Virus record (IMG/VR): IMGVR_UViG_3300010158_000204
Location: 1 to 33,219 of that record
DNA: 33,219 nt
Source of the DNA: a virus
Reading direction: 5' to 3' (one strand)
Shown: positions 1,556 through 23,500 of the stretch, one piece after another
How the letters are laid out: every line of letters begins with the position of its first letter
Position numbering within the stretch: the stretch's first letter is position 1
Translations under genes and position numbers: made by a program
Notes under the pieces: generated by a model
Databases searched by the model: none
What the model was told of the DNA's origin: nothing
What the model saw: only the letters and a program-made list of their open reading frames with translations

Positions 1556-1563
1556 TATAAATA
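1556..1563 (+). promoter_or_regulatory. T4-type late promoter element TATAAATA
   Basis: This is an exact match to the T4 late -10 consensus TATAAATA. It lies in the 33-base gap between two structural genes, followed by AAGGAG and an ATG at 1578. No -35 element is expected for gp55-type late promoters. The initiation point would fall at or next to the Shine-Dalgarno, giving a very short leader. Confidence 0.55.
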
Positions 1564-4500: not shown

Positions 4501-4745
4501 TTGTCAACGAAGGTGACACGCATGGAAATACATTCCAACTCTATGATAGTTCAGTTATTGGAATTTCCTACAGTGTTCCTAGATATACACAAACAACCAG
4601 TGCAGTTCTTAAAGAGAGACTGCCGACAAAATTTGATGGAAATGGAACGAAATTTGTCAGCAACATCGATTCTTACACTATACCATTGCAAGGCGATAAA
4701 TATCTAGCGTTCCCAAAGTTTGGAGTTTTCACTAATGGCCAGTAA
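1578..4745 (+). CDS. Large tail protein with putative Ig (He_PIG-like) repeats
   Basis: This 1055-aa protein has a good Shine-Dalgarno (AAGGAG, 5-base spacing). At least four copies of the He_PIG-type signature L-P-x-G-(L/V)-x(n)-G-x-I-(S/T)-G are visible, with LPRG near residue 46, LPKG near 154, LPDG near 318 and LPQG near 416. Each lies in a beta-rich Ig/cadherin-like stretch. The C-terminal half, from about residue 500, has no such repeats and begins with PYEDLYIKCLPS. It is probably a separate attachment or tip region. Such proteins are usually virion tail or baseplate adhesins that bind surface glycans; this function is inferred from the fold and from its place between the fibre gene and another virion gene. 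The last 11 bases overlap the next gene. Confidence 0.7.
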   Translation: MGNPIWITDQGDFGKIAAQQYFDLALQAIDPIGGGTVTYSLTAGQLPRGVQIDPTGYISGNPDRTYTVTGVPFSVNKDVTSTFTIRATSTYNGEVTGITDRTFYITITGNYPPVITSLNVPLGTYVDGTAINLQLTATDLNNDPLTWKFLTGRLPKGVTFSETGKITGVIEPIYGEISDLVGYNDSYWNTDGFERITVSNFIDYNFTASVTDGKATVVKNFKISVYNFAGLRADSISISDDTVFLTADLNAVRPPILLTTSLGSSSVTNSGGYYAFKFEGIDYSNTGITYILTSSTDYGFDSNTSGWDSYFWDRGDLGLPDGLTLDSSTGWLTGYIPAQVETTKDYSFGVAVLSNDGASSSISTFTLTILGNLDLAVTWDSPTNVGSIRNGDISTLYVKASAMSGRELYYTLKIGSRLPQGLILLEDGTISGRVSFQTMGFDKGTTTFDKDLTSKFVYLKNTNFDNLYKFTVIASDYYNQLSSEQTFTVSVIPSTYEPYEDLYIKCLPSIEQRQKIYTIIHNTDIFDSNDIYRPNDPYYGLQQDIKFIVSYGIKASKLSDYIAAMQTRHFNKKFYFGDYKLAQGKDENGNILYDVIYVDLIENTKTYRQDNNVTIIKSPNAFTNLNAVKSNWRNPRASGSNVIAPNDLTLMQKDLASSLQNSYLNSLPEWMVSTQSNNRIIGYTTGAVLAYLKPGTGAKALYNIKKLAPYDIKTVAFVTDRYVLNNSYSQNFDIVKRKFNDQKYTSFDNSAVGETAIIVPVARVDFAVDRPFDSIHGRTLDYIIDSGGLDGKGYNLQNKLIIFATQERYPGWNPYANDGWNKSDIIVNNYGWDELYTWDVQTWDRNEVANATVVPGYHERTLIPSLTNQRGGIWKIDVNQDNRVSLEFVRSISQGEILNIKSWSRTDGVSRIETTTVHSLSIGDTVQVKFGGGSPSTFVVLSVDNSLSFTYSDLGVNSTSQFISGTVIIPPEYVFVNEGDTHGNTFQLYDSSVIGISYSVPRYTQTTSAVLKERLPTKFDGNGTKFVSNIDSYTIPLQGDKYLAFPKFGVFTNGQ

Positions 4746-6387: not shown

Positions 6388-7029
6388 ATGACAGATCTTA
6401 GTTATGATTGCGAATGGAACTGTGTAATTGCTCTAGACGATTGGTTGGCCCCAAACTCCTATGCATGTAAAGTTTATTTTGATATCGAAACAGATGATGG
6501 AGAACAACAAAATATTGCTTTCGAAAGATGTAAGATTATGCTACATTCGATATTCGATCAGGCATTATTCATTAATATAAACAATCCACTGATACAAACT
6601 CTAGAAAAGAAAACAAAACAAAAGATTATTACTTTGCCCAATGAACCAATCGATGTTATCATGGCTGCTATGATCTATACTAAACTCAATGCAATATCCG
6701 AAGGAAGACTTTTCATCAGAAAAGTTAAACTTCGTAGTACACAAGGTGATAATATATGGATTCATTTTGATGATGAATTTGCTGAAGATTTTGGTAGTCT
6801 AGAGTGTGAAATGTATAAGACTGTTAAAGAAGAACAGCCATGGTGGGGGAATCCTGACCCAAGTACATGCGATTGGTTTGAAATTGGCAAGAAAGAAATA
6901 AAGTTTCACAAACATAAATCAGTCTGGGAAAAATCATTGCTGTGGGAACAAAGTAATGACAATAAAGAAAAGACTGGTCCAAAATGGAAACCAAAGGTAA
7001 TCGACGGTGGCAAAGAAACTAAACACTGA
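6388..7029 (+). CDS. Conserved hypothetical phage protein
   Basis: The 213-aa soluble protein starts at ATG 6388, about 14 bases after AAAGGATAAGG, so the ribosome site is poorly spaced. It is acidic in the middle, Trp-rich near the C-terminus (EEQPWWGNPDPSTCDWFEIG) and ends in a Lys-rich tail. No catalytic motif, signal peptide or membrane segment is visible. The last 23 bases overlap the next gene. I do not recognise a family with a known role. Confidence 0.6.
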   Translation: MTDLSYDCEWNCVIALDDWLAPNSYACKVYFDIETDDGEQQNIAFERCKIMLHSIFDQALFININNPLIQTLEKKTKQKIITLPNEPIDVIMAAMIYTKLNAISEGRLFIRKVKLRSTQGDNIWIHFDDEFAEDFGSLECEMYKTVKEEQPWWGNPDPSTCDWFEIGKKEIKFHKHKSVWEKSLLWEQSNDNKEKTGPKWKPKVIDGGKETKH

Positions 7030-7531
7030 CATTTATGATCGCATCATTTTAAGTGAACGTGATGTTTGCGATCATCTATACATCAATCCTAAATTGAATT
7101 ATAATTCAATCGAGTTAAAGTCAGCAGCAAGATACAATTTAGCCATTGACAGTTTATATTTAGATTGGCCAAAATTAAAACAACTAGAAGAGATTGCTGT
7201 TGATCCATCTGAATGGCATGAGGCAAATCAGAATACTTGGTTCATGCCCGACGAATATAAGAACATGGACATTGCGAAGTGGCTCTTGGATCTGTGTAGA
7301 AATGAAACTGAACTCCAGCGCACTGGCGCAGAATTGCTAATGTATGCCGAACGTGACTTGCTAGACTTGTTGCGTTACTTAAAATACTTTGTTGATACTC
7401 TTAGAGCAAACAACATTGTATGGGGTGTGGGCAGAGGCAGTAGTGTAGCCAGTTTCGTTCTTTATCTGATCGGTGTTCACAAGATCAACAGCATAACCTA
7501 TAATTTAGACATCGAAGAATTCATACGTTAA
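7007..7531 (+). CDS. DnaE-like (DNA polymerase III alpha) fragment protein
   Basis: The 174-aa protein must start at GTG 7007, because an in-frame stop lies at 6998 and the first internal Met is near residue 79. Its last ~65 residues align by eye with the segment of bacterial PolIIIalpha (DnaE) just before the palm aspartates: a helix (RDLLDLLRYLKYFVDTL), then WGVGRGSSVASFVLYLIG, then an I-T-Y-N-L-D-I-E-E-F ending. E. coli DnaE has VGPGRGSGAGSLVAYAL followed by a D-P-L-E-F-D-L-L-F-E-R-F stretch at this place. The protein stops exactly where DnaE continues into the catalytic P-D-x-D-x-D motif. It therefore lacks polymerase active-site residues and is probably not a polymerase; DNA or nucleotide binding is possible. 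Confidence 0.6.
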   Translation: MAKKLNTDIYDRIILSERDVCDHLYINPKLNYNSIELKSAARYNLAIDSLYLDWPKLKQLEEIAVDPSEWHEANQNTWFMPDEYKNMDIAKWLLDLCRNETELQRTGAELLMYAERDLLDLLRYLKYFVDTLRANNIVWGVGRGSSVASFVLYLIGVHKINSITYNLDIEEFIR

Positions 7532-10754: not shown

Positions 10755-10792
10755 GATTCAAAAGAGTTAACAATACACACATCTTTTGAATC
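10755..10792. promoter_or_regulatory. Inverted repeat in the phoH divergent promoter region
   Basis: An 11-base arm, GATTCAAAAGA (10755-10765), is perfectly complementary to TCTTTTGAATC (10782-10792). The 16-base spacer contains GTTAAC. The right arm ends four bases before the TGGTATAAT box of the rightward gene. Neither arm has a terminator-like T-run. It could be an operator for a dimeric regulator of both divergent genes, or an RNA hairpin. Confidence 0.45.
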
Positions 10793-10795
10793 AAA

Positions 10796-10804
10796 TGGTA
10801 TAAT
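10796..10804 (+). promoter_or_regulatory. Extended -10 promoter TGGTATAAT
   Basis: TGGTATAAT is a perfect extended -10 (TG-N-TATAAT), which can work without a good -35; none is seen at the right spacing. Initiation near 10811 would give a leader of about 28 bases to ATG 10839. A second element, GATAAATA at 10824-10831, lies closer to the same ATG. Confidence 0.45.
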
Positions 10805-10823
10805 TATGTTATTGTCTGACACG

Positions 10824-10831
10824 GATAAATA
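10824..10831 (+). promoter_or_regulatory. Late-type element GATAAATA, 7 bases before ATG
   Basis: GATAAATA fits the NATAAATA pattern of T4-like late promoters. It ends exactly seven bases before ATG 10839, so a transcript from it would be leaderless. The 17-base block ATAAATATTATACCATG is nearly identical (15 of 17) to the block ahead of the gene at 19344. Confidence 0.4.
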
Positions 10832-10838
10832 TTATACC

Positions 10839-11432
10839 ATGGTAAGCATCATTGATAACGTAAAAAATATTAAGCAAATTTACATGAGCGACTCCAGTCT
10901 CGGAATGCTCATGGATTTTGAACGTGTACTAGACAGCATGGATATCTATGCTTTTCCAAATTGGAAATATGGAGAACTTGTTGAAGGTCCAACTATTAGC
11001 AAATATTGGGTCAAATGTAAATTTATGTGGCCTGAGAATCTAATGCCAGATCCAAGCGGAGCAAAAAGATTGTTGCCATATGGTGCTAAGATCACTTATC
11101 AAAAAGAAACAGTTAAGATCCCAATAAAGATAAAATCTCCTGGAGACTTTCGTGATGGGAGTAAGAAAGGCAAGTTAGTAGATATTAAAGTTTGGTACAT
11201 TGATATAATGTTACCAAAACATCTGCTTGCAGAAATTAAACAAGGTTCTGTTGAAATTGCAGGCGAAGATATCGATCTCAGTGATCTGCAAAGCGCATAC
11301 GAAAAAGATTTGGATCAAAAGTCAATGACATCAGGCGATAGCACTGCGGCAGTGAATGCAGCAAATGCACAAACAACAGTCGAACCGCAAGCAGCCGCAG
11401 GAGTAGCACCCAATGCACCGCCAGCTATCTGA
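10839..11432 (+). CDS. Conserved T4-like phage protein, unknown
   Basis: The protein is 197 aa from ATG 10839; an in-frame ATG at 10806 would add 11 residues but overlaps the promoter elements. The core (DFERVLDSMDIYAFPNWKYG, ELVEGP, KYWVKCKFMWPENLMPDPSG, ARL-like LPYG and DIMLPKHLLAEI) has the look of a family I have seen in T4-like marine phages without known function. After residue ~165 the sequence is Ala/Thr-rich and probably disordered. There is no Shine-Dalgarno ahead of any candidate start. The last 20 bases overlap the next gene. Confidence 0.6.
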   Translation: MVSIIDNVKNIKQIYMSDSSLGMLMDFERVLDSMDIYAFPNWKYGELVEGPTISKYWVKCKFMWPENLMPDPSGAKRLLPYGAKITYQKETVKIPIKIKSPGDFRDGSKKGKLVDIKVWYIDIMLPKHLLAEIKQGSVEIAGEDIDLSDLQSAYEKDLDQKSMTSGDSTAAVNAANAQTTVEPQAAAGVAPNAPPAI

Positions 11433-11934
11433 AGGTCTTAGCAAGGAAGATTTAATCTATCTCGTTGGAAATAAAATTCATTTTGACGAATATGATAGCA
11501 AAATGGGTGAGAACGAAGACGTTATCACAGCCAGTTTTAAAATTAAGCAGCGCATGCCAAGCCAAGATCTAGTTAGTTTCATCGAGAACGGTTACGATTG
11601 GGTATTAGATGCTGACGTAAGTTCTGGAGAAGTTGATGATGGTGAATTCTTAGTATTCGTCGAAATGCCAAGACAACCTAGCATTTTTGAAAACATGATG
11701 GAACTGCTGGGTGATCTTCAACATCTGACTGATATCAAATTAAATGAATGGAAATTTAAATGGTATAAGCAAAAAGAATACTATCCACTGGATGAAGAAA
11801 CAATAACAGAATTAGTACCGACAACTCCAGGAAAATATAAAGAATTTACCGAACAATTTGCATCAGTCGACAAAGAACAAAAAAACTTAAGCGATGAGAT
11901 AGCACAAATCAAAAGGTTAAGTGGGATAGGATAA
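11413..11934 (+). CDS. Conserved hypothetical protein, partner of previous gene
   Basis: The 173-aa acidic protein starts inside the end of the previous gene. It shows an alternating beta/alpha pattern in the first 100 residues (DVITASFKIKQRMP, FLVFVEMPRQPSIFENMMELL) and a helical, coiled-coil-like C-terminus (FASVDKEQKNLSDEIAQIKRL). No enzymatic or membrane motif is seen. The 20-base overlap suggests that it and the preceding protein are made in fixed ratio and may interact. Confidence 0.6.
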   Translation: MHRQLSEGLSKEDLIYLVGNKIHFDEYDSKMGENEDVITASFKIKQRMPSQDLVSFIENGYDWVLDADVSSGEVDDGEFLVFVEMPRQPSIFENMMELLGDLQHLTDIKLNEWKFKWYKQKEYYPLDEETITELVPTTPGKYKEFTEQFASVDKEQKNLSDEIAQIKRLSGIG

Positions 11935-11938
11935 TCAA

Positions 11939-12337
11939 ATGTTTGGAGGAACTATGTGGAAAATTATAGCATTGGTACTCGTAATCGCTGCTGCTGTCGG
12001 TTACTTCAAATACACACAGGATAAGATGGCAGAACTTAATCAACAGATTGCCACTAAAGAATTTGCATTACAATCTGCTAATGCAACTATATTAAAACAA
12101 CAAGAAGATCTAAAAAAACAACAAGAAGTATTATTACAAACTAGTAAAGATTTTGAAGAAGCTCGTGCTTCAGTCACTGAACTCGAAGATAAGTTCCGTA
12201 AGAACGGCAGAGATTTAGATAAATTCGCAACAGCTAAACCTAAAGAAGTTCAAACTAGGGCAAATGCAGCAACAAAGAAGACATTCCGCTGCATCGAACA
12301 GCAAGTCAATAAAGGAAAGCAGGATGATGGTTGCTAA
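11939..12337 (+). CDS. Putative inner-membrane spanin (Rz-like)
   Basis: The 132-aa protein has one N-terminal transmembrane helix (residues ~6-24, IIALVLVIAAAVGYF). A long, charged, Gln-rich coiled coil follows (about 28-100), and then a short C-terminal tail with two Cys. This is the layout of an i-spanin: anchored in the inner membrane, with the coiled coil spanning the periplasm to meet an outer-membrane lipoprotein. The next gene is such a lipoprotein and overlaps it, and a holin follows. Two starts are possible, ATG 11939 (AGGA seven bases upstream) or ATG 11954 (GGAGG but only four bases away). The assignment rests on topology and context, since spanins are not conserved in sequence. 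Confidence 0.6.
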   Translation: MFGGTMWKIIALVLVIAAAVGYFKYTQDKMAELNQQIATKEFALQSANATILKQQEDLKKQQEVLLQTSKDFEEARASVTELEDKFRKNGRDLDKFATAKPKEVQTRANAATKKTFRCIEQQVNKGKQDDGC

Positions 12338-12713
12338 ATTAATTAATGTTTTTTTTATAACAGCAATTTTGGCAGGATGTGCAGGAACTCCAACTCCAAC
12401 TACCGCGATAGTACAAGTTGATAAACCTGCAATGATGTTGCCAAATGTAGATCAAGTACGACTTAGAGATGTCGACTGGTACGTTATAACAAGAGATGCA
12501 AAGCCTAACACACCAGGACATATCGATGCAGTTTGGAAGAAAACATCTAAAGACAGTTTGTTTGCTGTAACTAGCGATGACTACGAAGATTTAAGTTTGA
12601 ATGTATCTGAACTTACAAAGATAATTAAGCAACTACAATCACAGGTGCAGGCATATAAAGAATATTATCAACCAGAAAAACCCAAGGAAAATCAAAATGG
12701 CCAAAAAAAGTAA
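12324..12713 (+). CDS. Putative outer-membrane lipoprotein spanin (Rz1-like)
   Basis: From ATG 12324 (AAAGGA upstream) the 129-aa product begins with a short hydrophobic signal, MMVAKLINVFFITAILAGC. The lipobox is L-A-G-C, so the cysteine at residue 19 should be lipidated after signal peptidase II cleavage. The mature part starts with a Pro/Thr stretch, has a globular middle (VDWYVITRD) and ends in a helix and a Lys/Gln tail. It is longer than lambda Rz1 (60 aa). It overlaps the i-spanin-like gene by 14 bases and the holin by 17, forming a lysis cassette. In this model the two spanins fuse inner and outer membranes at lysis, which implies a Gram-negative host. Confidence 0.65.
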   Translation: MMVAKLINVFFITAILAGCAGTPTPTTAIVQVDKPAMMLPNVDQVRLRDVDWYVITRDAKPNTPGHIDAVWKKTSKDSLFAVTSDDYEDLSLNVSELTKIIKQLQSQVQAYKEYYQPEKPKENQNGQKK

Positions 12714-13296
12714 ACCTGACCTCACTGACGATCCAGATTTGATGGCGCCGAGATTATCACACGATGAGATCGAAGAAATTAACAATCCAGATGTACAACC
12801 TACACCGCCCCCTCCTCCTCCACCACCACCCCCACCTCCGCCACCACCCCCTCCTTCACCACCCTCGACTACTGCCCCTAGTGTTACTGTAGTTGATATT
12901 AACAATAACAATGGCATGGGACAAGCAGCATTTATGCAGACTCAAGCAACTGCTCAAGCACAAGCAACTGCCAGCGTGGGGATTGCTCAAACTTCCATAG
13001 ACGATGAAGTTGTTAAAGAACAAATGAGCAAGGAACAGGAGCATTGGGTCAAGGCTTATTGGCGTCCAGCCATGGGTTGGTTGTATATGCTTATTTGTCT
13101 CTGCGACTTCGTAATCTTCCCAGCAGTTGCAATGTTCCTCCCAGTACTGTTTAAGGGCTTAGGTGTACAGATGGCTTATACTGCATGGGTGAGTTTGACA
13201 CTCAGTAACGGCGGACTTATTCATATGGCATTCGGTGCGATATTAGGTGTTGCTGCATATGGAAGAACTCAAGAAAAGGTTGCTGCTCGTAACTAA
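12697..13296 (+). CDS. Putative holin with 17-proline tract
   Basis: The 199-aa protein has a charged N-terminus and a run of 17 prolines (residues 37-53) encoded by mixed CCN codons. A Gln/Ala/Thr-rich linker (75-100) follows, then a C-terminal domain with W-R-P-A-M-G-W, a hydrophobic helix at ~126-152 and another at ~163-188. The WRP-type lead followed by closely spaced membrane helices resembles the 3TM holin family seen in phages and gene-transfer agents. The position right after the two spanin genes supports a role in timing lysis. No endolysin is visible in the window. Seventeen consecutive prolines should make translation depend on EF-P. Confidence 0.6.
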   Translation: MAKKSKPDLTDDPDLMAPRLSHDEIEEINNPDVQPTPPPPPPPPPPPPPPPPPSPPSTTAPSVTVVDINNNNGMGQAAFMQTQATAQAQATASVGIAQTSIDDEVVKEQMSKEQEHWVKAYWRPAMGWLYMLICLCDFVIFPAVAMFLPVLFKGLGVQMAYTAWVSLTLSNGGLIHMAFGAILGVAAYGRTQEKVAARN

Positions 13297-13311
13297 GTCA
13301 TAAATTAAAGT

Positions 13312-14157
13312 ATGACCCATTATGCTACATTAGGGGTAGCAGTATCTGCTACCCCCGAAGAGATCAAATCATCATATCGAAAATTAGCAAAACAACACCA
13401 TCCGGATCTCGGCGGAGATGTTGCAAAATTTCAACAAATTAGTGAAGCTTATGAGACATTAGCAGATGCTGATAAAAGGGCACACTATGATCATACGTTG
13501 AGGAACCCACAACCACAATTTCATCGAGGAATGAATCCTAATTTTAATGATCCAAACGATACTTTTTCTCATATCAATGAGCACTTTAGCCAGATGTTTG
13601 GTTTTAATTTCACTCATCCGCAGACGCCTAGAAACAGAAACATCAGAGTTCAATTATCAATTAATTTCTTAGAGACGTTAGATATCTGTCAGAAAACCAT
13701 TGAATTTAATTTGTCAAAAGGTAGTGAACGCATAACCATTGATTTACCTCCAGGTGTGGCAGATAATACTGTATTACAAATGGCAGGCAGAGGTGATAAT
13801 GCAGTAATTACAGTACCGCGCGGAACACTGGAAATCTTAATTAGAGTTATGCCACATCCTAAATTTATCAGAGTCGAAGATCATGTGTTAACTGAAATTA
13901 CAATCGATTGCTTTCAAGCAATGATGGGAACTGAAGTAGACTTAGATACTCCACGCGGTAAAAAGATTAAATTAAATATTTCACCTGGCACACAGAATGG
14001 GACACAACTGGGAATCACTGACGAAGGGTTTACAAGAGCCAATAAAACAATGGGCAAGTTTATTGTCAGAGTAAATGTTATGATACCCACAGCATTGACT
14101 GAAGAGCAACTTAATTTAGTAAAGAAGATAGTTGATCTCAAGCCTATAAATACTTGA
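13312..14157 (+). CDS. DnaJ/CbpA-like Hsp40 cochaperone
   Basis: This 281-aa type II J-protein has a J domain at residues 1-65 (Y-A-T-L-G-V opening, H-P-D at 30-32, then a helix ending DKRAHYD) and a short linker with only a few Gly/Phe. Two C-terminal substrate-binding beta domains follow from about 105 (GSERITIDLPPGV; LDTPRGKKIKLNISPGTQNG). There is no Cys-rich zinc domain, so it is CbpA-like rather than DnaJ proper. J-proteins bring substrates to Hsp70 (DnaK) and stimulate its ATPase; here the partner would be host DnaK, since no phage Hsp70 is seen. It precedes a ClpA-type unfoldase. The last codons contain a TATAAATA promoter element. Confidence 0.85.
   Translation: MTHYATLGVAVSATPEEIKSSYRKLAKQHHPDLGGDVAKFQQISEAYETLADADKRAHYDHTLRNPQPQFHRGMNPNFNDPNDTFSHINEHFSQMFGFNFTHPQTPRNRNIRVQLSINFLETLDICQKTIEFNLSKGSERITIDLPPGVADNTVLQMAGRGDNAVITVPRGTLEILIRVMPHPKFIRVEDHVLTEITIDCFQAMMGTEVDLDTPRGKKIKLNISPGTQNGTQLGITDEGFTRANKTMGKFIVRVNVMIPTALTEEQLNLVKKIVDLKPINT
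14145..14152 (+). promoter_or_regulatory. T4-type late promoter TATAAATA before clpA
   Basis: An exact TATAAATA followed by CT, matching the longer T4 late consensus TATAAATACT, lies in the last codons of the DnaJ-like gene. Initiation would fall about 30 bases before the clpA ATG. It partly abuts a separate sigma70-like promoter (14154-14182), so clpA may be read by both early and late transcription. Confidence 0.5.
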
Positions 14158-14182
14158 CATGACAACTACTAGTTGCTATATT
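14154..14182 (+). promoter_or_regulatory. Strong sigma70-like promoter with palindrome in spacer
   Basis: TTGACA (14154-14159), a perfect -35, is followed after 17 bases by TATATT (14177-14182), 5 of 6 for the -10. The -10 ends seven bases before ATG 14190, so transcription would start at or next to the start codon. The spacer contains the 13-base palindrome CAACTA-C-TAGTTG (14163-14175), the form and place of a repressor operator. Confidence 0.55.
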
Positions 14183-14189
14183 TGTATTA

Positions 14190-16430
14190 ATGAAACAGAT
14201 TTATAGTTCAAACGGCGACATAGATAAAATCGTATCGGCTGCTCGAGGGTATGCTAAAGAATGGAACCATGAATATCTCATGGTTGAGCATTTGCTACTC
14301 AGCCTATTACACGAACGCTATTTTAATAGTTTATTAGACGAACTCGGTGTTCAAACAGAATTACTGATCAATGAAGTTGACGCATACTTGCAAAGCATCA
14401 CTGTTTTTGCAAATGAAGAAACACAGGATGATCTTAAGAAAACCGCAAGTCTAGAACGTGTGTTCAACCGTGCTTTTACTCAAGTAATCTTTAGCGGTCG
14501 TAAACAAATAAGTCTAATAGATTTATTTTTAAGTATCACAAATGAGACGCATAGCCAGTCTGCATTCCTATTACAGAAGTATGGCGTCGACAAGGAAACT
14601 GTTGTAAAATCTTGGTCTAAGCAGCGTAAGACTAAATCAAATAAAGGATATGCAGAAAAGATTCTCGAACAATATTGTTCAAATATGATGACTCTTGCTG
14701 GCGAAGGTAAGATTGACCCTGTCATTGGGCGTGAAAAAGAATTACACGAGTTAGTTCAAATTCTAGCAAGGAAAAATAAGAGCAATGTCCTATTGGTTGG
14801 TGACGCTGGCGTTGGTAAGACTGCTGTTGCAGAAGGCCTCGTTTTAAATATTATCGAAGATCGTGTTCCGGAGTTTCTTAAAGACTGGAAAGTCTACAGT
14901 CTTAATATTGGTCAGCTTCTTGCTGGTACAAAGTATCGAGGAGAATTTGAAGAACGACTACAAGAAATTCTCACTGCTGCTCAAGAGATAAAGAATGTTA
15001 TTCTCTTTATTGATGAAGCACATCAGATGAAGGGAGCAGGCGGGGGAAATAATAGTGCAGTTGATCTAGCAAATATGATTAAACCTGCACTTGCTCGTGG
15101 CGAGCTTAAGGTAATTGCCAGCACAACATGGGAAGAATATACACAACATTTCGAAAAAGATCGTGCGCTGATGCGTCGATTTAATAGACTTACGGTCGAC
15201 GAGCCCACTCCTGCTATTGCCATTCAAATTCTCGAGGGTCTGCGTGATAGTTACGAAGGATTCCATGATGTCAAAATTACAGATGAGGCAATCAAAGAAG
15301 CCGTTGATTTAAGTGTACGTTTTCAAAATGATAAGAAGTTGCCGGATAAAGCGATTGATCTCATTGACAGTGCAGCAGCATTGAAACGCAGCACTGATGC
15401 TGAAGATCGAACCATTGATGTAATTCAAATTCAACGCGAACTTAGTCGTATGACTGGCATACCAATGCATCAGTTCGAAGAAGAAAAAAGCACTGCTGAC
15501 ATCTCAACAGTTGAAAACGATATTAAGATGCGTGTATTTGGGCAAGACACTGCTGTTGATCAAATTCTCGATCGTGTTTGGGTTAACCGTGCAGGACTTA
15601 AGAGTAACAATCGTCCAGTTGGTGCCTTCCTGCTGCTTGGTCCAACAGGAACTGGTAAGACAGAACTTTCTAAGACATTAAGCGACAGGCTTGCAATGAA
15701 GTTTATTCGTTTTGATATGAGTGAATACGGCGAGCGACATAGTGTTAGCCGTTTGATTGGTGCACCTCCTGGCTATGTTGGCTACGAGGATGCTAACTTG
15801 GCAGGCGGTCTGCTTATAAGTGAGGTTTCAAAAAATCCTCACGCTGTTATCCTTTTCGATGAAATAGAAAAAGCACATCCCGAAGTAGTTCAGATTCTTC
15901 TACAGATCATGGACGAGGGCTTCGTCACAGGTAGTAATGGCAAGAAAGCAGACTGTCGCCAAGCGATCATTCTACTCACAAGTAATCTTGGTGCTGCTGA
16001 TAGCGAACGCAATAATATCGGGTTTGGATCTCTTATTAAGACAGGCGAAGATGATAAGGCCGTCAAGGAATTTTTCCGTCCTGAATTCAGAAATAGGCTC
16101 GATGCTGTTATTAAGTTTAATAAACTTAGTAAAGAAACCATCAAGAAGGTTGCAGTTAAGTTCATTGCTGAAATGCAGACTCAACTCATTGATCGTGGTA
16201 TCATGATTGAAATAGATGATACTGCATGGGATTATCTTATTAAGAATGGATATGACACTGCAATGGGTGCAAGACCAATGGCGCGACTGATACACGAGAA
16301 AATTAAAGTACCTCTTTCAAAGAAAATACTGTTTGACAAGTTGTTAGATGGTGTTACAATAAGAGTTAGCGCCGTAGACGACGTGGAGATATCAGTTGAA
16401 CGACAAGAATTACTACATACAGGCATTTAA
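14190..16430 (+). CDS. clpA: ClpA-type AAA+ unfoldase
   Basis: The 746-aa Hsp100 protein, close to E. coli ClpA (758 aa), has a helical N-domain (1-145) and two AAA+ modules. D1 has Walker A GDAGVGKT (204-211), pore loop KYRGEFEER (from 248) and DEAH (275-278). D2 has GPTGTGKT (484-491), pore loop GYVGYE (528-533), DEIE (557-560) and a C-terminal GARPM sensor-2. There is no ClpB-type coiled-coil middle domain. The loop S-E-R-N-N-I-G-F (605-612) sits where ClpA has its I-G-L/F tripeptide that docks into ClpP, so the protein should be able to pair with host ClpP. No phage ClpP or ClpS is seen. Likely roles are redirecting host proteolysis or unfolding during takeover. No Shine-Dalgarno precedes the ATG. 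Confidence 0.9.
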   Translation: MKQIYSSNGDIDKIVSAARGYAKEWNHEYLMVEHLLLSLLHERYFNSLLDELGVQTELLINEVDAYLQSITVFANEETQDDLKKTASLERVFNRAFTQVIFSGRKQISLIDLFLSITNETHSQSAFLLQKYGVDKETVVKSWSKQRKTKSNKGYAEKILEQYCSNMMTLAGEGKIDPVIGREKELHELVQILARKNKSNVLLVGDAGVGKTAVAEGLVLNIIEDRVPEFLKDWKVYSLNIGQLLAGTKYRGEFEERLQEILTAAQEIKNVILFIDEAHQMKGAGGGNNSAVDLANMIKPALARGELKVIASTTWEEYTQHFEKDRALMRRFNRLTVDEPTPAIAIQILEGLRDSYEGFHDVKITDEAIKEAVDLSVRFQNDKKLPDKAIDLIDSAAALKRSTDAEDRTIDVIQIQRELSRMTGIPMHQFEEEKSTADISTVENDIKMRVFGQDTAVDQILDRVWVNRAGLKSNNRPVGAFLLLGPTGTGKTELSKTLSDRLAMKFIRFDMSEYGERHSVSRLIGAPPGYVGYEDANLAGGLLISEVSKNPHAVILFDEIEKAHPEVVQILLQIMDEGFVTGSNGKKADCRQAIILLTSNLGAADSERNNIGFGSLIKTGEDDKAVKEFFRPEFRNRLDAVIKFNKLSKETIKKVAVKFIAEMQTQLIDRGIMIEIDDTAWDYLIKNGYDTAMGARPMARLIHEKIKVPLSKKILFDKLLDGVTIRVSAVDDVEISVERQELLHTGI

Positions 16431-17088
16431 GAGTTTGCTAAAACCGTATCAATTTACAAAAGTTGATAAGGTTTGGTATAAGCCAAAATTTGAATGGCGA
16501 ATTGAATTTAATTTTAGTCGACAAGATAGCATTGGAAGGCATAGTATTGACAATCGCTGGCAAACTCTTTTACGGGAATGCGAACTTAATCTTTGGGAAT
16601 TCCGTCGTCGTCGAGAAGCTTGGTGTAATATCTATACTAGCGAGATAGATCTGCTGGAGCATCTGTTGACCAATGAGAAATACAGAACTGCGATTGTCAG
16701 TGTTGAATACACTAATGAACAGTATATGAATGAATTAGATAATCAGATCAATTTAGATTCTATTACTGATATTAAATTTGTTAAGCATGTTCCTGAGTAT
16801 CGATACCAAGTATTTCTTGGAGGATTTGAATGGGGCAATGATTCTGTTAAACGACCATTAACAGAATACCTTGTCACAAATAGAGATGAATTTCTGTTTA
16901 AAGGTTACTATCAAGAAATTATTCATCGTTGTAAAAACAATAATCTAGTAGATAACTTTGGACGTTATTCTGGAGTATATGATGGGTTTAACTTCTATGC
17001 TAAAAGCACAGATGATATATTGATGTTGCATATGATCGCACCAAGTAAGATTAAAAAAATCGTAAAACTTATGGAGAGAGTAAAGTGA
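16396..17088 (+). CDS. Conserved hypothetical protein with TTG start
   Basis: The 230-aa product begins at TTG 16396, inside clpA (35-base overlap), with GGAG seven bases upstream. That ribosome site decides the start, because no in-frame ATG occurs for about 110 codons. The protein is rich in aromatic and charged residues (VDKVWYKPKFEWRIEFNFSR; GGFEWGN) and ends in an all-helical Lys/Met-rich segment. No membrane segment or catalytic motif is clear. I do not recognise its function. It overlaps the next gene in a GTGA arrangement, so the three genes from clpA on are probably coupled. Confidence 0.6.
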   Translation: MNDKNYYIQAFKSLLKPYQFTKVDKVWYKPKFEWRIEFNFSRQDSIGRHSIDNRWQTLLRECELNLWEFRRRREAWCNIYTSEIDLLEHLLTNEKYRTAIVSVEYTNEQYMNELDNQINLDSITDIKFVKHVPEYRYQVFLGGFEWGNDSVKRPLTEYLVTNRDEFLFKGYYQEIIHRCKNNNLVDNFGRYSGVYDGFNFYAKSTDDILMLHMIAPSKIKKIVKLMERVK

Positions 17089-17426
17089 AACTAACACTAG
17101 CACAAGCATTGATCGAACGTGGTATTCTTGCTAATAACAGCAGGATTTGGGCTACTTGTCCCATTATTGCAATGGGAAATGCTCCAGCAGAAGCATATAT
17201 TCCATTAACAGTTGATCGTATCGTCTGTGAGGAAGGAACTATTAAGTTCCGTGCAGTTCATTCATCCGGTCGTCGATATAGCATCCCCTGCGAGGAAGTC
17301 AATAAGATTGATGGAATGGCTCCAGAACGACTAGCAGCAGCATATGATATTCGTCCAGATGGACTCAAGAGAGCACCTGGAAAAAAGCGTGGCAGGAAGA
17401 GCAGAGAGGATCTTGCAAACGCATAA
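17085..17426 (+). CDS. Small basic-tailed protein, unknown
   Basis: The 113-aa protein starts at GTG 17085 in a 4-base overlap (GTGA) with the previous stop, with GGAGAG at 17074-17079. The N-terminal 80 residues look like a compact alpha/beta domain. The C-terminus is a basic tail (KRAPGKKRGRKSREDL) of AT-hook-like composition (RGRK), suggesting nucleic-acid binding, although there is no other support. A late-type element lies at its end. Confidence 0.6.
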   Translation: MKLTLAQALIERGILANNSRIWATCPIIAMGNAPAEAYIPLTVDRIVCEEGTIKFRAVHSSGRRYSIPCEEVNKIDGMAPERLAAAYDIRPDGLKRAPGKKRGRKSREDLANA

Positions 17427-17429
17427 ATA
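17422..17429 (+). promoter_or_regulatory. Late-type element CATAAATA
   Basis: CATAAATA fits NATAAATA. It lies at the stop codon of the previous gene and 16 bases before the ATG at 17445, with GAGGAG between. The geometry is almost the same as at 1556-1578 (15 bases), which supports it as a functional late promoter with a very short leader. Confidence 0.45.
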
Positions 17430-17444
17430 ATAGAGGAGCTAAAA

Positions 17445-17609
17445 ATGGCTAAACTCAATGAAGACATTATCGAAATCAAAGTCAGTGAACTTGTAAAAGA
17501 TGACGCACCGACCGCTGTGATTTTAGATGCAGATCTACTTACACAGTTGTTAGAAGTTATTGAACAATTAGTTGGCGAAAAAAGACTTGTGGAAATTAAC
17601 ATAAAATGA
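17445..17609 (+). CDS. 54-aa acidic protein, unknown
   Basis: This short gene has an excellent ribosome site (GAGGAG, six-base spacing) and fills the gap between two clear genes. The product runs MAKLNEDIIEIKVSELVKDD, then APTAVILDADLLTQLLEVIE, then a short tail ending in EINIK. It looks like a strand followed by an amphipathic helix. Its TGA overlaps the next ATG (ATGA), so the pair are coupled. Small proteins of this kind occur in T4-like phages without known function. The good start, tight packing and absence of internal stops make it likely to be real. Confidence 0.65.
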   Translation: MAKLNEDIIEIKVSELVKDDAPTAVILDADLLTQLLEVIEQLVGEKRLVEINIK

Positions 17610-17974
17610 GCATTGTCCCAACTGTAGTAATCAGTAATACCGCACACGGTGCCGCAAATGGTGCTTATAATGGCACAGATCTAAATTGGTATAGTACCCA
17701 ATATAAGGCTGATGGTTATTACGGATATACAGACGGACTACAAACAGTCAGTTATAAACTAACTGGATTTGTTGGGGTTATCGGTATGCAAGCAAGTCTA
17801 GCCACTACTCCAACTGCAACAGATTGGTTTGATATTACAGAAAGCCAAATTGGCAACGGAGTTACACCAACATCTATTTCAACTTATGCTAATTTCAGTG
17901 GAAATTTTGTTTGGGTAAGAGTTGCTATTACCAATTTCACAGCAGGCACAATCAATCGTGTGCTATATAATTAA
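17606..17974 (+). CDS. Small beta-rich protein, probably virion-associated
   Basis: The 122-aa protein is poor in charged residues and rich in Thr, Gly, Asn, Tyr and Phe. Alternating hydrophobic patterns (VSYKLTGFVGVIGMQASL; GNFVWVRVAI) suggest a beta-sandwich of the type found in phage decoration or fibre-attachment proteins. It has no signal peptide or membrane segment. It starts in a 4-base overlap with the 54-aa gene and precedes a glycosyltransferase. A structural role is inferred from composition alone. Confidence 0.55.
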   Translation: MSIVPTVVISNTAHGAANGAYNGTDLNWYSTQYKADGYYGYTDGLQTVSYKLTGFVGVIGMQASLATTPTATDWFDITESQIGNGVTPTSISTYANFSGNFVWVRVAITNFTAGTINRVLYN

Positions 17975-18000
17975 AATCAACTAGCAAAGAGATTCAATTA

Positions 18001-18861
18001 ATGTCAGAACAATCAAACGAAAACACAACAAACGATCACGGACTACCCCCAGAAGTCTTAGCATATCTAAGAACAACACACGTTCATTTCTGCTTGCCAA
18101 TGTACAATGGCGTTTGCAATGAAGCAACATTCATCAGTATGATTAAGTTCAGTATCATTGCTGCTAAGTTAGGTGTTAACTACAGCATCGATACTATGGT
18201 CAATGAATCACTGATTACTCGTGGGCGAAATAACTTGGTTGCTAAATTCTTATTCAATCAAGCAGCAACACATTTAATGTTTATCGACGTTGATCTTGGA
18301 TTTGATGCTGAGTCAATCTTGCGATTGCTGTGTGCAAATCAAGATGTAGTTGGCGGGGTATATCCAATGAAACGTATACCCATTAGATATGTTATTAATA
18401 CTGTACCGAATCCTGTAGTATTAGGTGATTTAGTTGAAGTATCAACATTGGGCACAGGCTTTATGTTGGTTAAAAGAGATGTGATTTTAAAGATGATTGC
18501 TGCTCATCCTGAACTAAAATATCGCGATAACATCGGCATCGGTGCTCAGTATGAGCCGTTGATGTATGGATTGTTTGACACAATGATCGATCCCGATGGC
18601 AACTACCTATCAGAAGATTGGACATTCTGCTATCTATGGCGCTTGATGGGCGGTAAGGTATTTGCTGATACTGGTATTAAGTTAGATCATACTGGATATC
18701 ACAAGTATGCTGGCGATCTCGAAGAACTTAAGAAAGTACTAACTAATCAAATTGGCAATGGTGTTGGCGTTGGTGCAGATAATAATGTTCCAAAGATTGA
18801 ACTTAATCTAACCGACACAAGTGCTATGGAGATTGTAAGTAAAGAAAAGGAAGGGTCATGA
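18001..18861 (+). CDS. Glycosyltransferase, GT-A-like
   Basis: The 286-aa protein has a Rossmann-like start (VHFCLPMYNGV), an NESLITRGRNNLV segment, and then a strand ending in FIDVDLGF. That last segment holds the D-x-D that binds metal and sugar nucleotide in GT-A enzymes. Further on come GTGFMLVKRDV, the acidic SEDWTFC (probable catalytic-base region) and a DHTGYHKY histidine motif. This order fits family 2-like or related phage and giant-virus glycosyltransferases. Acceptor and sugar cannot be told; phage virion proteins, DNA or host glycan are options. It overlaps the next gene by 4 bases (ATGA), so that protein may share its pathway. Confidence 0.75.
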   Translation: MSEQSNENTTNDHGLPPEVLAYLRTTHVHFCLPMYNGVCNEATFISMIKFSIIAAKLGVNYSIDTMVNESLITRGRNNLVAKFLFNQAATHLMFIDVDLGFDAESILRLLCANQDVVGGVYPMKRIPIRYVINTVPNPVVLGDLVEVSTLGTGFMLVKRDVILKMIAAHPELKYRDNIGIGAQYEPLMYGLFDTMIDPDGNYLSEDWTFCYLWRLMGGKVFADTGIKLDHTGYHKYAGDLEELKKVLTNQIGNGVGVGADNNVPKIELNLTDTSAMEIVSKEKEGS

Positions 18862-19325
18862 TTGAGTCAGTTGCTTTTACAGTATCTCTATCTGGTATTT
18901 GGTGGAGAGATCCACCTTTGGTTAACATTTATCTCAATGATGAAATGATTGAAGCAAATGTTTCTGTAGATGCAAGAGATGATTTAGATGAACCTAAGGT
19001 CATTAGTTTTACAAGAGATCTTGAAGAAGGTGAGCAAACTCTTAAGATAGAGTATCTTAATAAGAGAGACGATGATACTAAGGTTGACGATAGAGGCAAC
19101 ATCATCAAAGATCAAGTATTACTGATCAAAGATGTTAGCATCGACGAAATTAATCTAGGTAATATACTAAGAAAAACGTCAGTATTTTATCCGCGACCCG
19201 ATCGTGTTGCAGCATTGGATTGGTTAGAACCAGAAATTAAAGGAATGTGTTCAACTGGACACAATGGAATTTGGGAGATGAAGTTTAGTCTTCCAACTTA
19301 CTTGTGGTTATTAGAAAATCTGTAA
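18858..19325 (+). CDS. Beta-sandwich phage protein, possible carbohydrate-binding module
   Basis: The 155-aa protein starts in a 4-base overlap with the glycosyltransferase. The first ~100 residues show a jelly-roll-like pattern (SGIWWRDPPLVNIYLND, EEGEQTLKIEYLNK, LLIKDVSIDEINLGNIL). The end, TGHNGIWEMKFSLPTYLWLL, contains the N-G-x-W-x-x-x-F-x-x-P motif I know from a widespread phage family of unknown role. The fold resembles CBM-type modules. The gene at 24118 appears to encode a shorter relative (shared D-V-S-I-x-x-x-x-x-x-N-I pattern). Sugar binding is inferred from the fold and from the adjacent glycosyltransferase. Confidence 0.6.
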   Translation: MIESVAFTVSLSGIWWRDPPLVNIYLNDEMIEANVSVDARDDLDEPKVISFTRDLEEGEQTLKIEYLNKRDDDTKVDDRGNIIKDQVLLIKDVSIDEINLGNILRKTSVFYPRPDRVAALDWLEPEIKGMCSTGHNGIWEMKFSLPTYLWLLENL

Positions 19326-19328
19326 TCT

Positions 19329-19336
19329 CATAAATA
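19329..19336 (+). promoter_or_regulatory. Late-type element CATAAATA, 7 bases before ATG
   Basis: CATAAATA ends exactly seven bases before ATG 19344, which has no Shine-Dalgarno. The 17-base block ATAAATATTAGACTATG matches the block at 10825-10841 at 15 of 17 positions. Initiation would produce a leaderless or nearly leaderless mRNA for the ligase-like gene. Confidence 0.45.
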
Positions 19337-19343
19337 TTAGACT

Positions 19344-20480
19344 ATGAGAGCAACTGAGTTTTTAACAGAAGAATATGACCCCACTAAGGCTAGAGTACCT
19401 CATCCCGAAGATCGTGTATTCGATGAAGGATCTGCTGGTGCTCTAAAAGGCATTGCAACACTACAACAAATGGCAACTAATCCAGAAACTATTAGTGTTA
19501 AGCCTGATGGCAAGCCTGCTATAGTATGGGGCAGAGACGAACGTGGTTTTACTATGTGTGACAAGCATATGTTTGCCAAAGGTATATTGCCACGTAGTCC
19601 TCAAGAAATTGCAGAGATTTATTCGCAGCGCAAAGGCGGTGGCAGAGAAGAACTTGCTGATATGATAGCACAACTTTGGCCACAGTTTGAAGCAAGTTTG
19701 CCAAATGGCTTTAAAGGTTATCTATTTGGTGATTTGATGTATAGTCAAACTCCACCTGTAGAAAACAATAACTTTGTGTTTAAGCCAAATACTGTTGTTT
19801 ATACTGTTCCTGTTACAAGCGAACTTGGACAGAGAATGGCAAAAAGTAACTCGGGTATCGTTGCTCATACATTCTTTAATACAGCACCTTCCCCGGGACC
19901 AGACGGAAAGATTGTTGCTCCTCCAGGCAGACATATATCAACACCACGCGGTGTGAATCCCAATGGACCATTATTAGTAATAACCGATCAATTTACCACT
20001 CCGCCTAGAGTTAAAATTCCGCCTGAATTAGCATCAATGACTAACTTTATTAAAAGTAATGCAGCAGTTATGGATAAAGTAGTCGATCCAAATGCATTAA
20101 CAGCATTGAAAATTAAAGATCTACCGCAGTTGTTAACCAAATATACTAACAATAGAGTTCGCCAGCGTAATTTTGATGGATTTGGCAGTGACTTTCTACA
20201 GTGGTTGGATGGCGAAGGCAGAGTTAGTGATGGTAAGAAAAAAAATATTGCTACACATTTGCAAGCAAACGCTTCTGGATTCAAAGTCATGTGCCAAACA
20301 TTTATTGGTATTATGAGAGTTAAAGATATAGTTGTTAACGTATTAGATTCGCACCCTGCGCAGATGCAGGCGCATATCAATGGTCAAGCAGGTCAGGAAG
20401 GATACATGGTACATGGAAAAGAAAATCCCACTAAGATTGTGGACCGTGCTAAATTTTCTGCTGCTAACTTCGAACACTAA
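19344..20480 (+). CDS. Putative ligase/nucleotidyltransferase-fold protein with head-targeting-like leader
   Basis: The 378-aa protein carries motifs arranged like those of covalent nucleotidyltransferases (DNA/RNA ligases, capping enzymes): SVKPDGKPAIVWG with K53-x-D-G (motif I), GYLFGDLMYS at 125-134 (motif III-like), EGYMVHG from 352 (motif IV, E-G-x-x-V) and TKIVDRAKFS from 363 (motif V lysines). In such enzymes the motif I lysine is adenylated by ATP. It resembles large uncharacterised phage families such as DUF6267, so activity is unproven. The N-terminus MRATEFLTEE is like T4 internal-protein leaders (MKTYQEFIAE), with L-T-E as a possible prohead-protease site. No Shine-Dalgarno precedes the start. 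It is followed by the 1109-aa multidomain gene. Confidence 0.55.
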   Translation: MRATEFLTEEYDPTKARVPHPEDRVFDEGSAGALKGIATLQQMATNPETISVKPDGKPAIVWGRDERGFTMCDKHMFAKGILPRSPQEIAEIYSQRKGGGREELADMIAQLWPQFEASLPNGFKGYLFGDLMYSQTPPVENNNFVFKPNTVVYTVPVTSELGQRMAKSNSGIVAHTFFNTAPSPGPDGKIVAPPGRHISTPRGVNPNGPLLVITDQFTTPPRVKIPPELASMTNFIKSNAAVMDKVVDPNALTALKIKDLPQLLTKYTNNRVRQRNFDGFGSDFLQWLDGEGRVSDGKKKNIATHLQANASGFKVMCQTFIGIMRVKDIVVNVLDSHPAQMQAHINGQAGQEGYMVHGKENPTKIVDRAKFSAANFEH

Positions 20481-20481
20481 T

Positions 20482-20489
20482 AATAAATA
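20482..20489 (+). promoter_or_regulatory. Late-type element AATAAATA
   Basis: AATAAATA lies in the 30-base gap after the ligase-like gene, 21 bases before ATG 20511. It is followed by TTTTATTAATCGAG. It shares the ATAAATATT core with the elements at 10825 and 19330. No clear Shine-Dalgarno follows; GAG at 20501 is the best candidate. Confidence 0.4.
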
Positions 20490-20510: not shown

Positions 20511-23500
20511 ATGCGTTTAGATGAACTAGATAACGAACCAGTTAAAAAAGTTGTGTTTACTTTTGGTCGATTAAATCCTCCACACTATGGCCATATGGCT
20601 TTGATTCAAACACTTCAAAAAGTTGCCAAAGAGCAGGGTGCAGATTGGTATTTGTTTGTCAGTAGTAAAACAGGTGATGAAAAGAATCCACTAACTTACG
20701 AACAGAAAGTATGGTGGATCAAGGCTTTATTTCCAGAAGTTTCAGGTCACCTAGTAGAAGATTCCAGTATCAAAACTCCATTGGTTGCTGCAACTTGGTT
20801 GTATAAACAAGGATATCGTGCTGCTACTTTTGTTGCAGGTGAAGATGATATGGAATCATATTCACAAATGATTAAAAGTGGAAATGCACACGGTCAAAAG
20901 AATACAGATGCTGTTAAAATGGGTAAGGGATTTATTTTCAATCCTTTAGAATTTGCAATAAGTCCACGTTTAGCCAGTGCTACAAATTCTCGTAAGAGTG
21001 TCACTGACGGCGATCCAGAAACATTCACTCGTAATGTGCTAGGACCAAAAGCGGGGGATGCAAGACTTGCATCTCTTGTTCAAAATCAACTATATCCAAC
21101 ATTGCGTAAGTCCATGGGATTAGGAGAAAGTGTCAGTGAAAGTACAGAACTTAACAAACATACTCCTAATGTAAGAGATCTTGCTAAGAAGTATACAACC
21201 GATCCTGCTACTATACATCATCAGATCAACAGAGGTGTTAAGGTAGAGTTCGAACATACTAAGGATATCGAAACTGCCACTGAGATAGCAATGGATCATC
21301 TAGGTGAGAGATTAGACTACTATGATCTATTAGACAAATTAGAGAAGATGCCGATTAAAAAAATTGGTGAGAATTTTTCTGATGGTAAAGGACCGGGTCG
21401 TCCTGGTGATAGCCAAAGACATGGTATCCCAAAGAAAGCCACAATGCCAGAGTTAGAAAAGGCAAGCCACGCTAAAGGTCGTAAAGGACAATTGGCACGT
21501 TGGCAACTCAACATGCGCAGAGGCAAGAAGAAAGCAAATGAAGATGGGTTCGCTGTTGGGGGTGGACCTGGTGGTAACGCAGATGGCAGTAATCTATTAG
21601 ACAGACAAGTTGCTATTATGCCATGGGATGTTGAAACGCCAGTAACAGAAGTTGCCGATCAGCCATATCGTTTCATCAGTCCAGTAAGTACTGCAACTGC
21701 TCAGAAGTCAATGTTTCAAACTGATAGTGGCACAAAGATGCAGGTCAACATTATCGTCGATCAAGCCAATGGTGTTGCTGATGTTGGATTTTATGACTCA
21801 ACGGATAAAGACAATCCTACGATTGCTATGACTGGCAAGGGCGATGCCTTCCGTATCTTTGCTACAGTGGGTGCTATTGTAAAGCAGTTTGTTGCTAAAC
21901 GTAAGCCACCATTCTTAAGTTTTGCTGGCAAGACTTCAGACCCTGGTCGTATTAAGTTATATGATATGATTGCCAAGAATATTGGACGCTATCTGCCAGA
22001 GTATAAGTTGATTGATTCTGGCTTTGTCAATGGGGACAAAGGGTATACATTCAAGAGAGTAGCAGAGGAAAGTGTCACCGAAGCGCCAAAGATGAGACCA
22101 TTTCAAATTGTCGGCGGATATGGATTTGAAACACAAATCCATAAATTTGAAGCACCTTCTCAAGCAGATGCAGAAAGATATGCAGAGAAATGGGCTGTTC
22201 AAAATGTTGATTTAATTCCCGGTAAAGCAAAGCGTTATTTTGTAAGACCTATTACTAAATTTGTTCAGCAACCATCATATTGGACTACATTAGGTGACAG
22301 CATTGAAGAAGAAAAGAAACCTAAGAAGCCAAAGACTATCATTGACGGTGCGTTAAAGACATTGATTGCCAAAGGTCGCAGCGAAGATGAAGCCATTGCT
22401 GATCTTAAGAAAGAAATTGATGGTAAGTTTTACGATCTAACTGAGACAAGAGAAGGTGCTTTAAGTTGGCTTAAGAGTTATTTGCCATCGTGGCCAGAGT
22501 ATGTACTGCGTGATTGGCTTTACAGGGGGCTAACCAAACACGATCCAGGTGAGAATCCTAAGGAAGTAGTTGATAGAAGCCTTGCCGGCGAAGGCATGTC
22601 AGCACAAACACAATGGAAACTTATTCCCAATTTTGAATTTAAGATAGAAAAACTACATCCTGATACTCAGCGTCGCATTAACATTAGAGCAGGCGGCAGT
22701 GCTAATCCAATGAAGGTTCCCAAGGATGCTGAACGCCATGCTACACAGGCAGCACTTGCTCAACAGCAAGGCGGTGTTCGCAAAGAGCCAGTAATTGGTA
22801 AGATGACTCCTCAGGGTTTTGAATTGATCGAAGGTTGGCATCGTACCATACAGCATTTTAAAATGTATCCCAATGGTTATACTGGGCCTGCGTATGTAGC
22901 AATGAATGCCCAAACAACAGAAGATTTAGGGGAAGCAACTGATTACAGCAGAGGTGAAGAATTAGAAGGCATTGACATCATGGGTGCGCCAGTCTTCATC
23001 TCACATCATGCTATTGAACGTCTAGATAGAAAAGGCGAGCGCAGTGTTGATGTTGAAGAAATTTATGAAATCATCGAAAAAGCAGTAAGACAAAATGGCA
23101 AAGATATTGCTAAACTACATAACACAGATTTTATACTCAAAGGCGAGAATGGTCCTCCAAGAGAACCAAAAAATGGCTTAGGTCTTGCAATAGCAAAGAT
23201 TGAAGACTCTGCAGGAAATCCAGTATATCTTATTAAGACTGTACATCCAAGATTACTTGTTGATAAATCAAAACCTGGATTTAGAGTTCAGGGATTAAAA
23301 CGACGTTATTCAATGTATGAAGAAGTTGAAGATAATCACAAGCCTCGTGTCTATTTAGATATGGATGGTGTGCTTGCTGACTTCTTTGGTGAATGGTCAA
23401 AGTTGGCCGGCGTTGAACATTATAAAGATATAGTTAATGCTGAAGAAAAATTACAATTAGTACGAGATCATCCTACATTTTGGATTGATCTTCCCATGTT

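Follow-up and report, generated by a model that had tools for sequence, protein, structure and literature searches.

Leaderless genes are known in both bacteria and archaea, in phage lambda the leaderless gene is cI, and the late transcription of phage T4 is a textbook system. The T4 late promoters possess an ATAAATA box without a -35 element and are associated with gp55, gp33, and gp45 (review PMC2988020), the box TATAAATA occupying positions -13 to -6 as counted from the start site (PMC1524935). The lambda leaderless mRNA is cited as the first case (PMC3160421), and for phiKZ a late promoter motif TATG is cited, in which the G is the start (PMC5312081). Leaderless transcripts are known to suffer less inhibition by kasugamycin (PMC5230787). 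Late promoters were sought in pelagimyophages in one published study, without success (PMC7029224). A limited search of the open-access literature turned up no description of leaderlessness among T4-type late genes.

The whole stretch of DNA analysed here (the window; 33,219 nucleotides) is a 33.2-kb virus fragment within which no tRNA genes were found. Since its family-B DNA polymerase is nearest to those of Sinorhizobium phage Phosso (50%), Agrobacterium phage Atu_ph07 (47%), and the RaK2/GAP32 group, the window is assigned to a T4-like giant phage. The search for a host in bacterial genomes via relatives of S21 or ClpA gave nothing useful. The match of a short ORF at 7007-7531 is confined to part of the DNA polymerase III alpha NTPase domain (PF07733), and the predicted protein encoded at 12697-13296 has a proline run close to its N-terminus.

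The sequence-only reading had pointed to three genes lacking a Shine-Dalgarno (SD) sequence, each with a -10-like box ending seven bases before the ATG. This observation was confirmed: the boxes GATAAATA (10824-10831), TATATT (14177-14182), and CATAAATA (19329-19336), all on the plus strand, lie 7 nt before the ATGs at 10839, 14190, and 19344, respectively, and no SD of at least 4 nt precedes any of them; comparison with relatives strengthens the case, and this comparative evidence is decisive. The accompanying view that other genes of the window have good SD sequences needs correction, as the genes at 13312, 17606, 18001, and 20511 also lack a good one.

The gene at 10839..11432 (plus strand; gene A) encodes a 197-aa member of a virion structural protein family (PHROG 12928) and is predicted to be leaderless. 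Its T4-type late promoter box ends 7 nt before the ATG, with a predicted +1 at 10837-10839, and is retained in relatives G001-G006 although most of the upstream DNA diverges; in the relatives the gap between the box and the ATG is 5-7 nt and the letters after the box are conserved. The relatives align from the ATG at 10839, and the in-frame upstream ATG at 10806 was rejected as the true start, being not conserved in them. The close arrangement is found in G001-G006 and G012-G014, while in G007-G011 AAAGGTG and a leader come after the same box, so leaderless initiation would not be obligatory for this gene. Further upstream, at 10797-10804, lies GGTATAAT (GGCATAAT in relatives), a conserved GG(C/T)ATAAT about 35 nt from the gene, possibly an additional promoter, from which the transcript would carry a leader of about 28 nt. 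An inverted repeat ATTCAAAAGA...TCTTTTGAAT at 10756-10791, partly conserved in relatives, separates gene A from a divergent phoH-like gene.

The gene at 19344..20480 (plus strand; gene B) belongs by family match to the DUF6267 family (PF19782, PHROG 455) and is likewise predicted to be leaderless. Its T4-type late promoter box stands 7 nt before the ATG in the window and 4 nt before it in most relatives, and every relative that retains the box has it in the close position. The distance of exactly seven bases is thus true of all three window genes but is not conserved, varying from 4 to 8 (mostly 4 for gene B relatives, 5-7 for gene A relatives). A 17-base block had been described as shared at 15 of 17 positions between 10825 and 19330, and both sites do match ATAAATATTANACNATG exactly, but the resemblance is partly coincidence. 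The letters after the box are kept for gene A and not for gene B, whose relatives retain the box only; for gene B the whole block is therefore ruled out as the signal.

The third gene, a ClpA/ClpB-like AAA+ ATPase gene (14190..16430, plus strand; PHROG 4871 by family match), which has no SD and is also predicted to be leaderless, is preceded by another kind of promoter. The sequence at 14154-14182 has the form of a sigma-70 promoter (TTGACA, a spacer of 16-18 nt, and a TATAAT-like hexamer): TTGACA at 14154..14159 is the -35 and TATATT at 14177..14182, after a 17-nt spacer, is the -10, both on the plus strand and conserved in relatives. The gap of 7 nt to the ATG becomes 6-8 in relatives with a readable start (L248 not counted), while the starts in G013, G014, and L243 look leadered. 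One promoter class for all three genes is ruled out by these elements at 14190. Just 5' of the TTGACA there is a copy of TATAAATA (14145..14152, plus strand), of which many relatives retain only (T/G)AAATACTTGACA or similar, so this copy may belong to the sigma-70 promoter instead of being a late one. In L243 (1147-1222) the clpA-like gene apparently retains the sigma-70 promoter with a longer leader containing AAAAGGA, a possible switch from leaderless to leadered expression.

ATAAATA is scarcer in the window than expected (7 copies vs 12.9), and all 7 copies are on the plus (coding) strand upstream of gene starts, with 0 on the other strand. Only two of them stand 7 nt before an ATG without SD, the remaining five being more distant. 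The copies at 1557, 4696, and 17423 have an SD downstream: the late promoter box TATAAATA (1556..1563, plus strand) is followed by AAGGAG and the ATG at 1578, the late-promoter-like box GATAAATA (4695..4702, plus strand) lies 32 nt before the ATG at 4735 with GGAG present, and the late promoter box CATAAATA (17422..17429, plus strand) is followed by AGGAG and the ATG at 17445, a leadered form with box and SD kept in the relatives read. The late-promoter-like box AATAAATA (20482..20489, plus strand) is found 21 nt before the ATG at 20511, where the SD is weak. When the window alone was compared with shuffled sequence, its two cases of ATAAATA-N7-ATG were reached in 3.6% of 500 dinucleotide shuffles (fraction 0.036), but ATAAATA at any gap of 4-9 nt was not significant. 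The significance is weak, and the window by itself would not prove the leaderless reading.

The excess of the motif at gene starts, which the sequence-only reading had proposed as its check, was found across related contigs. The set comprised 19 contigs, namely, the window and 18 contigs retrieved via gene A or gene B, with whole phage genomes for comparison; a case was counted as close when the box was 4-9 nt before an ATG opening an ORF of at least 60 codons, and 20 other letter arrangements of ATAAATA served as controls. In the 19 contigs ATAAATA was close to an ATG in 62 of 268 boxes (23%) vs a permuted-motif rate of 2.3%, the controls giving a mean of 13.9 close cases (max 21) though they were on average twice as frequent as ATAAATA itself. 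The spacing is bimodal, with 0 boxes at a gap of 10-12 nt and 87 at 13-30 nt, usually with an SD; newly added contigs behaved similarly, having 8 of 25 boxes at a gap of 4-8 and 0 at 9-14. The gaps peak at 4, 5, and 7 in the jumbo clades, and of 17 close cases in pelagiphages 14 have a gap of 5. The close class, which spans about 45 protein families, is poor in SD (at least 4 nt in 7/63 close vs 61/82 distant cases; Fisher 5e-15) and starts mostly at ATG (57 cases vs 2 GTG and 5 TTG).

Taken by clade, the three giant-phage groups gave a binomial p of 3e-11, 7e-14, and 7e-23. In the Pelagibacter phages HTVC008M and Mosig it was 5e-10 and 0.001, respectively, the enrichment was weak or borderline in Melnitz (p 0.08) and P-SSM4 (p 0.04), and in the fragments G017 and G018 it was not significant. 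All these p-values count orthologues within a clade as independent, which they are not. All 12 close ATGs of HTVC008M are annotated CDS starts, including those of baseplate, head-tail adaptor, DNA end protector, and tape measure proteins. The class is restricted to certain clades: close late boxes are absent in T4, RaK2, S-PM2, Syn9, and 400 kb of Atu_ph07, which rules out the close box as a trait of all T4-like phages.

A second class of close promoters was revealed in the three giant-phage (jumbo) clades by a scan for TTGAC, 16-20 nt, and (T/C/G)ATANT, controlled with the reversed pattern. It gave 34 close cases, 27 of them exactly 6 nt before the ATG, vs 1 for the control. The genes of this class encode primase, DnaB-like helicase, endonuclease, exonucleases, clpA-like, and dnaJ-like products, while close late-box genes include those of structural proteins, a cytidyltransferase, and a glycosyltransferase; with such gene content leaderless initiation, if real, would serve both early-type and late-type genes. 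The proposal of a group of phage mRNAs that begin with the AUG is supported by the excess of the box at the start codons of related genomes, but the group would be divided between two promoter systems.

The late boxes have the form (N)ATAAATA without a conserved -35, as in T4-type late promoters. A gp55-type factor (PHROG 12791, E=3e-70, with an SbcD-like gene nearby) is encoded in G013, and G014 and G018 also match the gp55 of HTVC008M, while no gp55 gene was seen in the 33-kb window. The co-activator gp33 is annotated in HTVC008M, the G013 match being insignificant. In the leadered boxes of pelagiphage-type genomes the frequency of A is 0.72 at the position 6 nt past the box end, where the T4 numbering would place the start site. 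Ribosomal protein S21 (PF01165) is encoded in G009 (77813), G013 (183631), G018 (110259), HTVC008M (91237), Mosig (9983), Melnitz (35461), and Atu_ph07 (489120) and was not found in T4, RaK2, S-PM2, P-SSM4, and Syn9; its presence appears partly to track the putative leaderless class, with exceptions and with shared ancestry as a confounder.

According to these data genes A and B very probably rely on T4-type late promoters, their 8-bp box being recognised by a gp55-type late sigma, and an ordinary sigma-70 promoter very probably drives the clpA-like gene. In each case RNA synthesis would begin on the A of the start codon or no more than about 2 nt from it, and the resulting leaderless mRNAs would be initiated via direct recognition of the 5'-terminal AUG without an SD. 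Both the start at the AUG and this mode of translation we infer from the sequence. Given the T4 numbering of the late box (-13 to -6), +1 would coincide with the A of the ATG at a gap of 5; for a sigma-70 hexamer, which occupies -12 to -7, the corresponding gap is 6. With their gap of 7, genes A and B would have +1 either on the ATG or 2 nt upstream of it.

Since the late-box spacing is variable (4-8), some transcripts may carry 1-3 leader bases. That the late boxes are real promoters with a start 1-3 nt before the AUG is a lesser possibility for gap-7 genes like A and B, which under the T4 geometry would have a 2-nt leader, and it overlaps with the leaderless reading; gaps of 7-8 recur, but the commonest late gaps are 4 and 5 and the sigma-70 gap is sharply 6, so the start codon itself is apparently targeted. 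Transcripts beginning further upstream, with the boxes being A+T-rich sequence near starts or minor promoters, would agree with the conserved GG(C/T)ATAAT element 5' of gene A and with a motif barely beyond chance in the window alone. This is improbable, however, in view of the permuted motifs of the same composition, which have no such excess, of the empty interval at 10-12 nt, of the gene A box outlasting its diverging surroundings, and of the close genes lacking an SD.

A+U-rich leaders are able to aid initiation in the absence of an SD, and the box might, instead of being a promoter, enhance translation initiation within a longer mRNA, for example as an S1 site. Such a role is very improbable, since the same box also precedes genes with a good SD at a distance of 13-30 nt and fits the gp55 consensus, and since in the sigma-70 class a -35 stands at the proper distance and the close cases have a gap of 6.

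Leaderless initiation from close promoters may be proposed, quite tentatively, as a standard mode for many genes in one T4-like giant-phage lineage and at least two pelagiphages, from early-type sigma-70 promoters (in the giant clades) and gp55 late promoters, possibly with a phage-encoded S21 shifting the ribosomes towards these mRNAs.

Compared with the known systems, the bacterial "TA-led" leaderless genes (PMC3160421) and the S. meliloti leaderless transcription starts (PMC3616915) also combine an AUG start and the lack of an SD with a -10 box some 12 nt upstream of the start codon; however, they belong to the host and depend on its sigma factors, whereas here a phage late sigma would take part too and the genes are of both temporal kinds. 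The lambda mRNA shares the phage origin and the beginning at AUG but concerns one gene, in contrast to the dozens of gene families predicted here from sequence. The phiKZ giant phage has an ATG inside the late start motif (PMC5312081), but it uses its own multisubunit RNA polymerase, while here a gp55-type sigma presumably acts with the host polymerase. If the reading is true, gene calling in such phages is affected, and boxes fused to the start codon may explain the failed pelagimyophage search (PMC7029224). The T4 late promoters share with the present ones N-ATAAATA, the missing -35, structural genes among those preceded, and a gp55 homologue in the relatives; they differ in that T4 has 0 boxes 4-9 nt before an ORF ATG and its distant cases carry SD leaders. 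A late promoter fused to the start codon would show how promoter placement can replace a ribosome-binding site.
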